Shown here: positions 14,919-19,821 of the stretch, piece by piece
How positions within the stretch are numbered: the first letter of the stretch is position 1
Layout: every line of letters begins with the position of its first letter
Virus record (IMG/VR): IMGVR_UViG_3300030419_000165
Location: 799 to 21,338 of that record
DNA length: 20,540 nt
Direction: 5' to 3' (one strand)
Origin: a virus
The notes under the pieces: model-generated
The model's database searches: none
Told to the model about the DNA's origin: nothing
The model's input: the letters and a program-made list of their open reading frames with translations, nothing else
Program-made: the position numbers and the translations under genes

Positions 14919-16928
14919 TCAGTTAATATCTTTAGTGTCAAGCCAATTATTACCTATTTTTGCTTCTAATAATAAAGGCACATTAAAATCAATATTGAAC
15001 TGTCTTTCAACAATATTCTTTAGTTGTCTATTAACTTCAGACAACAACCATATGACTTGTTTTTCCTCATGAGGATGTATATCAATTACAATACTGTCAT
15101 GCACAGTATTTACTATACATGATTTATAGTCTTTCAATACACCCTCTATGTGTACTAATACAAGAGGCACTATATCTGCAGTAGCAAAACTCTGCACAGG
15201 ATAATTCTTTATCTGTGTAAAGTGTGATACAGAGCCATTCATTCTTCTCTCTACATCAGGAAAACTAAATTGTCTTCCTGATGGTGTGGTAATACTACGT
15301 TTTTCTATAGCCTCTTGAGCCAATCGGGAATGCCATATGGCGATTTCCTTGTATTTCTTTGTGAATTGTTGGTAGTATTTTGCTTCTGCTTGTGTCCTTC
15401 CGAATCCTGTTGCTCCATAGAGAGGTGCGAAGGTGTGTGCTTTCGCTTCCTGCCTAGTAGTTCGCTGACCTGATTGCGTAATGACGTTAGCAGTGTACGC
15501 ATGAACATCAAATCCATCTTCAATCTCCTTCATTGCTACTTTATCTTGTGATAAATAGGCTGCAGTTCTAAACTCTAACTGTGCAAAGTCTGCCTCTAGA
15601 ATCTTGCCACCTTTCCAACGTGAAACAAATACCTTTTTTACAGGAAATGTGCCACCTCTAGGCATATTCTGCATATTAGGGTCTGCTCCACTAAACCTGC
15701 CTGTAGCAGTTCTATGTTGTAGTAATCTAACATGAAGCATACCATCAGACTTCACGTGTGACTTGATACCTTCTACGAAGGAAGATAGGTATGTGTCTAA
15801 TGCAGATAATCTTTTTAAGTCTGTTAAAAAATTACTTGCACTAGTCATGTTAGCACGATTTGCTATACCTTGTAGTATATCCAAATTACTTTTTGATACA
15901 CCGAAGCCATTGGCACTAATCCATTTAGCATTGGGTGCATTAAATTTTAATCCTGCGACAATTCTATCATTATGAAAATGATAACCAAGACCATTACAAC
16001 TAGGGTCTTTATTGGCAATAGAGTAAAGAGTTCCATCTTTTTTTACCTTTCTTATTTTACCTGTGCCATTACAAACATTACAGGTGATTGCTTTAGTTTT
16101 ATATACGAGTTCAGAGTTATTACTCACTGCATATTTATAATCATCTTTACTCATATGAGGAGTAAACTCATTTGTCCACATGGCTTTGTCTTTAGGTTTT
16201 CTACTATAGATTACCCAAGACATTTGTTCAGGACTGTTGAGATTAATAGGGGTATCCCCCATAAGTTCTCTAACTTGAGTAGTTAGTCTACCTTCTATCT
16301 CTTGCTTTTCTTTTTCAAACTCTAGTCTTACAGACTCTAACATATCTTGGTCTACCTTAAAGCCATTCCTATGTATTCTAGCTAAAGTCATAGATACCTT
16401 ATTAGTGAGTATAACTGTATCCATCAAAGATGTATTTGTAAGACGAGCATATTGATTAGCACACAACTCTTGTGTTGCTTTTAAATCTGCAGATAAATAC
16501 TCTGCTAACTCTTGTCTTGGTATCTCATCAACACCCATACCCTTTGCAAAATATTCCTTTAGGGTATCTTGTTTTTTGGTATCTAGGTTGTGCCTCTCTG
16601 CACAAGCCTCAAGAGATAAGGGTTCTTTGATTCCCTTTTGCAGTATATACTCTGCTAACATAGTATCAAAGATAACCCCATCATATTTAAAGCCACACTC
16701 CCATAACCACATTAAATCGTAAGCTATGTTGTGTCCTATTAAAACTGTGGCACTATCTAATAACTCCTGAATACCTATGACTCCGTCATCCATGTCATAT
16801 AAATATTCATTACCATTATCATCTCTTATACCTACCATAACTAATTTATTAGTAGGTTCATATGGGTCTAGGTAGGTTCTACCATCCCTTTTTGTTACTG
16901 TATTTTCTACATCAATCGTTAACTTCAT
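14919..16928 (-). CDS. polA: DNA polymerase I family (family A) with 3'-5' exonuclease
   Basis: A 669-aa replicative polymerase. Exonuclease motifs: Asp6/Glu8 (TIDVE), GHNIAYD with Asn67 and Asp71, and YLSAD with Tyr144 and Asp148. Polymerase motifs: motif A with Asp447 (EADFAQLEFR); motif B R492-x3-K496-x3-F500-x3-Y504-G (TRQEAKAHTFAPLYG); and motif C HD at 610-611 (TVHDSIV). Phe500 matches Phe762 of E. coli Pol I. There is no 5'-3' exonuclease domain, as in T7 gp5. Residues 245-330, where T7 gp5 has its thioredoxin-binding insertion, hold a DnaJ-like zinc motif (CNVCNGTG at 283-290, then CNGLG at 311-315). The start overlaps the helicase stop by four bases (ATGA). Cysteine 4 of the zinc site is missing. 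Confidence 0.96.
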   Translation of the reverse strand: MKLTIDVENTVTKRDGRTYLDPYEPTNKLVMVGIRDDNGNEYLYDMDDGVIGIQELLDSATVLIGHNIAYDLMWLWECGFKYDGVIFDTMLAEYILQKGIKEPLSLEACAERHNLDTKKQDTLKEYFAKGMGVDEIPRQELAEYLSADLKATQELCANQYARLTNTSLMDTVILTNKVSMTLARIHRNGFKVDQDMLESVRLEFEKEKQEIEGRLTTQVRELMGDTPINLNSPEQMSWVIYSRKPKDKAMWTNEFTPHMSKDDYKYAVSNNSELVYKTKAITCNVCNGTGKIRKVKKDGTLYSIANKDPSCNGLGYHFHNDRIVAGLKFNAPNAKWISANGFGVSKSNLDILQGIANRANMTSASNFLTDLKRLSALDTYLSSFVEGIKSHVKSDGMLHVRLLQHRTATGRFSGADPNMQNMPRGGTFPVKKVFVSRWKGGKILEADFAQLEFRTAAYLSQDKVAMKEIEDGFDVHAYTANVITQSGQRTTRQEAKAHTFAPLYGATGFGRTQAEAKYYQQFTKKYKEIAIWHSRLAQEAIEKRSITTPSGRQFSFPDVERRMNGSVSHFTQIKNYPVQSFATADIVPLVLVHIEGVLKDYKSCIVNTVHDSIVIDIHPHEEKQVIWLLSEVNRQLKNIVERQFNIDFNVPLLLEAKIGNNWLDTKDIN

Positions 16929-18924: not shown

Positions 18925-19821
18925 TTATATACTCTTATTATAATTATTTCTTAATGTCAAGGCATTTTCTGCACTTGCATATGTATTTTTCATGTAAGGT
19001 TTTACTGACTGTGGGTTTGCGTGTCCTGTAACAGACATGATTTGACCCATAGGCACACCTGCCTCTACCATTTCAGTAGTTCCTGTTCTTCTTAAATCAG
19101 ATATTCGTAACTCATTAGGTAATCCTGCTAGTTGTATAACTAATCTAGCAACTTTGGATAACCTTTGCATAGTGTATGGACTATATGTGCCTTTCATAAC
19201 AGTAGGATAGGGTGCAACATAAGGTTGAAAACCATAATCTTCTGCCTGTTTTTTAAGCATTTCTAATAAGTCATCTGATATAGGCAAGTGAACTACACTT
19301 CTTCTCTTTGACTGCTCTAAATTTAGCACACCTTTATCAAAATCTATGCTAGAAAACTGTAACAATCTCATATCCCCTACCCTTTGACACCATTCGTATG
19401 CCATTTGCACTATCAATCCCAAGTTTCTATACTTGAAATCTCCATAAGCATAGTTAAGAAATTTCCTAACTTGTTCTTTTGTCCATGTGACATTCCTTAC
19501 ATGAGTAGTTTTTCTTTTGAAAGTAGAGAATGGATTGCTTTCTGCATACCCCATTTCCATTCCAAAGGAATACATCTTACGAGCAACTGCACACACAGAG
19601 TTTGCCAAGTAGATTCCTCTACTCAACCACACTTCATACCCTCTTCGTGCAGTCGCACCTGTCATTTTAGTAAGACATATTTCTGCCATCTTTTTGCCAT
19701 TAACTTCTGTGTCTAACAGAACACCTGCACAATATTGATAATCGTGTTTAGTTTTATCTGCTAAACTATTGAAATCGTTAGACAAAAAGTATTTATCATT
19801 AAGCGATTTTAAGTTCATCAT
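18925..19821 (-). CDS. int: Tyrosine recombinase (phage integrase)
   Basis: A 298-aa protein. The N-terminal about 110 residues form an SAM-like DNA-binding domain (KTKHDYQYCAGVLLD, then YLANSVCAVARKMY). Catalytic residues: Arg147 in CQRVGDM, beta-hairpin Lys172 in SKRRSVVHLP, Arg244 in SDLRRTG, His267 in VTGHANP, and Tyr276 in KPYMK nine residues later. The position normally held by His in HxxR is Ser241. It cuts and joins DNA at attachment sites. Pelagiphage-type podoviruses are known to carry such integrases. I see no tRNA, repressor or excisionase in the window and could not place an attachment site. A tandem ATG start at 19821-19816 makes the exact first residue uncertain by one. Confidence 0.92.
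   Translation of the reverse strand: MMNLKSLNDKYFLSNDFNSLADKTKHDYQYCAGVLLDTEVNGKKMAEICLTKMTGATARRGYEVWLSRGIYLANSVCAVARKMYSFGMEMGYAESNPFSTFKRKTTHVRNVTWTKEQVRKFLNYAYGDFKYRNLGLIVQMAYEWCQRVGDMRLLQFSSIDFDKGVLNLEQSKRRSVVHLPISDDLLEMLKKQAEDYGFQPYVAPYPTVMKGTYSPYTMQRLSKVARLVIQLAGLPNELRISDLRRTGTTEMVEAGVPMGQIMSVTGHANPQSVKPYMKNTYASAENALTLRNNYNKSI

Follow-up and report, generated by a model that had tools for sequence, protein, structure and literature searches.

The DNA polymerase encoded in the window carries a thumb insert of a known kind, but in a new variant and with an unexpected recombination history. The window is the whole stretch of 20,540 nucleotides that was analysed, part of a 21,338-base virus record. 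The insert is predicted to cap a β-hairpin between thumb helices H1 and H2 with a DnaJ-like finger, in which the third of four cysteines is replaced by aspartate (Asp308). This Asp form is a recombining allele that moves between related phages by short-tract homologous recombination. Location, conservation, ligand-only substitution and recombination were all established by computation.

The polymerase and its thumb insert

On sequence grounds, the polymerase is a member of the HMO-2011-type marine phage clade. It shares 62.7% identity over its full length with the DNA polymerase of Puniceispirillum phage HMO-2011 and groups with the clade in the tree. The nearest named relatives were HMO-2011 and the Roseobacter phages CRP-345 and CRP-1. 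Genes for an integrase, a primase, a helicase, an endonuclease I and a ribonucleotide reductase (RNR) surround it in an order that matches HMO-2011. Phages of this type are among the abundant ocean viruses (PMC9038755). The polymerases of HMO-2011, CRP-1, CRP-2, CRP-3 and HTVC033P resemble the window's enzyme in family, insert location and the gene order helicase-polymerase-endonuclease-RNR. However, the cultured phages of the group that were read have four Cys in the insert (11/11), while the window has Asp as the third.

The integrase is of the tyrosine type (18925-19821, minus strand), and its gene is found immediately upstream of those for primase, helicase and polymerase. Given this gene, the phage may be temperate, as was reported for CRP-3 (PMC9038755). 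Some contigs of the HMO-2011 type (L333/L334 and L338/L339) were found with the same name and length in both a Flavobacteriales and a Neomarinimicrobiota MAG, into which the phage DNA was evidently mis-binned.

Features of the polymerase gene and its thumb insert (positions in the window)
Feature	Residues	Position	Strand	Basis
Family A DNA polymerase, HMO-2011-type (3'-5' exonuclease, thumb, palm/fingers)	669 aa	14919..16928	-	PF00476 172.9 bits, PF01612 28.5 bits
Thumb helix H	194-223	16260..16349	-	AF2 secondary structure; alignment to E. coli Pol I
Thumb helix H1, within NLNSPEQMSWVIY	233-241	16206..16232	-	AF2; Pol I and T7 equivalents
H1-H2 insertion, 104 residues	242-345	15894..16205	-	AF2; comparison with Pol I and T7
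Hairpin stem, first strand	276-282	16083..16103	-	AF2, pLDDT about 89-94
First knuckle CNVCNGTG	283-290	16059..16082	-	Cys283 and Cys286 in 223/223 insert-bearing relatives
Basic loop KIRKVKKDGTLYSIANK	291-307	16008..16058	-	Lys/Arg at 294, 296 and 297 in essentially all relatives
Exchanged tract	codons 291-322	15963..16058	-	Nucleotide comparison with L003
Second knuckle DPSCNGLG; Asp308 for Cys3, Cys311 = Cys4	308-315	15984..16007	-	Sequence, relatives
Hairpin stem, second strand	316-324	15957..15983	-	AF2
His317-Phe-His319, accompanying the Asp308 allele	317-319	15972..15980	-	At least one His kept in every Asp type read
Thumb helix H2	346-358	15855..15893	-	AF2

An earlier note on this DNA had described a degenerate zinc-finger insertion in the polymerase thumb at 15966-16082. 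This segment corresponds to residues 283-321 on the minus strand, and Cys283, Cys286, Gly288, Gly290, Asp308, Cys311, Gly315, His317 and His319 were all confirmed. The AF2 model was built on 96 relatives and had a mean pLDDT of 89.6 (84-94 within the insert). In the model, H1 is followed by a helix (261-271), by a two-stranded hairpin with the knuckles as its cap and then by H2, in agreement with the thumb location claimed in the note. The link between H1 and H2 comprises 104 residues compared to 16 in Pol I and T7.

Resemblance to DnaJ

For polymerases of the HMO-2011 type, two CXXCXGXG motifs within a partial DnaJ central domain have been described (PMC9038755, PMC6918029), and the GenBank annotation of the HMO-2011 polymerase includes PF00684. 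The insert as such is thus already known in these phages, and it is the Asp308 version that is new here; no report of the Cys-to-Asp form was found in the main texts of the literature searched. As in the published description, the window's polymerase has a partial DnaJ-like domain between its exonuclease and polymerase domains (insert 242-345). Two CXXCXGXG motifs were also the condition for admitting metagenomic genomes in PMC9038755. The second motif of the window reads DPSCNGLG and departs from this pattern; sequence and tree still place the window in the clade. Taken literally, the published screen would leave lineages with Asp or His out of surveys.

The match to PF00684 reached 21.8 bits and covered profile positions 13-55. 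It remained below the gathering cut-off of 32.7, as did that of HMO-2011 with 29.0 bits. The full domain has four CXXCXGXG motifs and two zinc centres; the insert has two such motifs, and in one of these Asp takes the place of a Cys. The DnaJ-like character proposed in the earlier note was borne out by the best sequence match in the PDB, namely motifs 2 and 3 of E. coli DnaJ (E 0.0034). A fold search with the insert alone returned nothing significant (best DnaJA2, E 0.62, prob 0.60). The insert shares two paired knuckles with zinc centre II of the DnaJ/Hsp40 cysteine-rich domain (PF00684), whose motifs 2 and 3 match best. It differs in offering a single potential zinc site where DnaJ has two, in the absence of a J domain and in its place within a polymerase thumb. 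This resemblance speaks for a DnaJ-type zinc centre rather than for a chaperone function. In Roseobacter phage CRP-738 (L220), the loop between the knuckles has about a dozen more residues (CRDCNGVGSIQKFKQVTRQKNGKKYRIQGEPYKNRTKCKVCDGVG) than in the remaining cultured phages that were read.

Position relative to the T7 thioredoxin-binding domain

The insert was placed against T7 by means of the anchor FNPSS/FNLSS/NLNSP and the published limits of the T7 helices. A direct profile alignment to T7 was poor (probability 15%) and was left out of the placement. NLNSPEQMSWVIY of the window equals FNLSSTKQLQTILF of E. coli Pol I and FNPSSRDHIQKKL of T7 (334-346), in which FNPSS starts at residue 334. 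H1 and H2 of T7 span residues 339-348 and 365-372, and template crosslinks in this H1-H2 region of the thumb fall at 346-355 and 360-373 (PMC9198812). The thioredoxin-binding domain of T7 was grafted into S. aureus Pol I with VVFNPSS joined to SPKQL, according to the primers (PMC6486907).

By this placement, the T7 domain lies before H1, in the H-H1 loop, and the insert of the window lies after H1; therefore, the insert is not located at the T7 loop. The earlier note had suggested about that region, which does not hold, as the T7 domain precedes FNPSS and H1 while the insert follows the NLNSPEQMSWVIY helix. The H-H1 link of the window's polymerase is short, as in Pol I, and no thioredoxin-binding domain was found there. 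A T7-like thioredoxin loop was thus ruled out by position, and the insert is not a thioredoxin device because the T7 domain sits in another loop that is short here. Both are thumb insertions in family A phage polymerases with a probable role in processivity, but the T7 domain is without a zinc motif. A processivity device different from that of T7, as the note also proposed, is plausible for the insert.

Putative metal-ligand positions

In total, 225 distinct polymerases were compared, of which 223 contained the insert and two without it served as outgroups. Cys283, Cys286 and Cys311 (Cys1, Cys2 and Cys4) were invariant in all 223, and the first CxxCxGxG was essentially so, which exceeds a chance motif. 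At position 308, Cys was found in 203 sequences, Asp in 14 and His in six; Asp and His types were partly fetched deliberately, and these counts should not be read as population frequencies. This is the comparison of CxxC...CxxC with the Asp form that the earlier note had called for.

IMG/VR was scanned while all other motif positions were kept constant. At 308, 37 contigs had a codon with A, C or G as its first base, and the translated ones all encoded Asp or His. Codons beginning with TA, TC or TT at 308 gave no contigs, nor did codons beginning with A, C or G in place of Cys1 or Cys4. Asp (GAY) and His (CAY) codons are two changes away from Cys (TGY), and Ser, Arg, Gly, Tyr and Phe, which are a single change away, were not met at 308 in the scans. 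Trp, whose codon was excluded from the scans, was absent from the 223 insert-bearing polymerases. Judged from these sequences, the site is under strict ligand constraint and not decaying, because position 308 is restricted to the possible metal ligands Cys, Asp and His and the other three Cys are invariant. The finger is therefore not degenerate, as it had been called, and degeneration was ruled out by this occupancy of 308. The His form has a single origin on the tree, and a single origin is also possible for the Asp form. With as few as two substitution events behind both forms, the ligand-only argument draws on a small number of changes, each of which led to a metal ligand, together with the strong conservation.

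In terms of sequence positions, four potential ligands lie at conserved sites as C, C, D, C, and Asp308 is most likely the fourth. The earlier note had considered that His317 or His319 could replace the missing Cys, which would give a Cys-Cys-Cys-His site. This would agree with the occurrence of His319 in 4/4 Asp types compared to 1/91 Cys types (alignment A1) and with the fact that none of the Asp types read lacks both His. However, His319 is replaced by Asn in the Asp types L237 and L241, and His317 by Asn in L004, with Asp308 constant throughout; moreover, the related His308 form has its ligand exactly at 308 and possesses neither His. A ligand role of these residues in place of Asp308 is thus possible but unlikely. 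Asp308 appears to be the better candidate because each His is lost in some Asp types.

Exchange of the Asp form between phages

When trees were computed from the polymerase minus its insert, the Asp form required at least five changes, and a constraint of the Asp form to one clade was rejected (AU p = 5e-9). Asp and Cys forms alternate among polymerases that are about 95% identical. The Asp type L004 and the Cys type L010 share about 95% DNA identity along the gene, but 58% in 301-330. Conversely, the window and L003 are 99% identical over the 96-nt tract of codons 291-322 compared to 79-81% in the rest of the gene. No synonymous difference was found in 31 codons of this tract; the tract was chosen post hoc, and at the backbone rate the chance of such a result is about 3e-6. 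Within the window, no second copy of the Asp tract was detected. It is unusual for phages to swap part of a polymerase in a tract of roughly 100 bases, and this may hint at an interaction that is under selection.

As the sequences are metagenome contigs and a typical sequencing read exceeds the tract in length, strain chimeras formed during assembly could in principle imitate such an exchange. This explanation is very improbable: many contigs from separate data sets show the alternation of Asp and Cys, and flanks with only about 80% identity between window and L003 would be hard for an assembler to bridge. An element or hairpin at the DNA level was rejected as well. The Asp tract contains two inverted repeats, but its folding in the window (z of -2.5) was not clearly better than that of the Cys-type relative L006 (-2.0), with about -1 in other Asp types.

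Recombination also bears on a reading in which the Asp form no longer binds metal and its finger persists as a relic that the hairpin stem keeps together. Asp is a poorer ligand than Cys for soft metals, and the Pfam DnaJ score was lower in the Asp type L004 (14.2 bits) than in the Cys type L015 (22.5 bits). However, no Asp type lacks any of the other three Cys, residue 308 is always one that can bind a metal, and the allele spreads through recombination instead of decaying, which renders a relic improbable.

The all-pairs scan of tract divergence was biased by the deliberate fetching of Asp and His types and was repeated on Cys-Cys pairs only. Among these pairs in the window's clade, residues 305-327 differed by 27% compared to 4-8% in two large flanks, and the second knuckle was the fastest-changing part of the polymerase. 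Synonymous divergence at 305-327 was ordinary, which suggests a faster change of the protein. In the rest of the family, the excess was weak with about two- to threefold. A further reading, which we regard as rather doubtful, treats the second knuckle as a swappable and diversifying cassette within an essential polymerase. Its Asp version and several Cys versions, all mutually divergent, would circulate within one phage clade by micro-recombination under selection by a partner that touches the finger, the Asp version being the one with an altered metal site. Candidates for the selecting partner would be a defence protein of the host, an inhibitor encoded by a satellite or a replisome component that varies.

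Proposed function of the finger

The insert is basic, with a mean net charge of +7.4 over 59 residues (223 sequences) compared to a median of about 0, and Lys/Arg at 277, 294, 296 and 297 in essentially all relatives. The charge of the window's insert (+6) corresponds to the 95th percentile of its own protein and is not the maximum. We moderately favour a zinc-stabilised basic finger at the thumb tip that would grip duplex DNA with Asp308 as fourth ligand; the metal, the DNA contact and processivity are what we infer. A single finger similar to DnaJ zinc centre II would cap a basic β-hairpin grafted between H1 and H2, and its metal site would stiffen the hairpin into an extended thumb tip. The Lys/Arg residues at 277, 294, 296 and 297 would then flank the duplex behind the active site and retard dissociation, with no need for thioredoxin. 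In T7, by comparison, the DNA is held by the thioredoxin-binding domain of the adjacent loop. The allele of the window would form a Cys-Cys-Asp-Cys site, with His317 and His319 as second-shell or back-up ligands; it spreads among related phages via short-tract homologous recombination.

Alternatively, the finger could be a protein-docking module for the helicase/primase, for an SSB-like protein or for a host chaperone via DnaJ-like recruitment of DnaK, with a second knuckle that tracks its partner; a link between DnaJ and replication was suggested by analogy with lambda (PMC9038755). The fast change of the second knuckle would suit a partner-facing surface, but the four Lys/Arg positions are essentially invariant. 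Stimulation of DnaK needs a J domain, which is absent from the window's polymerase. Furthermore, the H1-H2 position touches the template in T7 (PMC9198812). Docking is therefore a possibility of lower probability than the DNA-gripping finger. No biochemistry on any polymerase of the HMO-2011 group was found in the literature searched. With the placement of the finger at the thumb tip beside the duplex, the strict ligand constraint and the natural Cys-to-Asp/His forms, ready-made test variants are available.

Related hairpins in other phage polymerases

Long H1-H2 inserts with a basic YKTG/YKSG-like hairpin at the equivalent site also occur in the more distant polymerases of the phages Alcaligenes QDWS535, MEP401, ICP2 and Acinetobacter MD-2021b. 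They differ from the window's insert in being Cys-free, without the knuckles. Homology of the hairpins was judged by eye, and on this basis the knuckle probably capped an older hairpin. The family A polymerases of Methylophilales MEP401 (L221), Vibrio ICP2-type Rostov-5342 (L222) and Alcaligenes QDWS535 (L227) are split into two ORFs at nearly one place, shortly after the motif TGRLSS..PN.QN. In MEP401, an ORF of 78 aa lies between the two polymerase ORFs.
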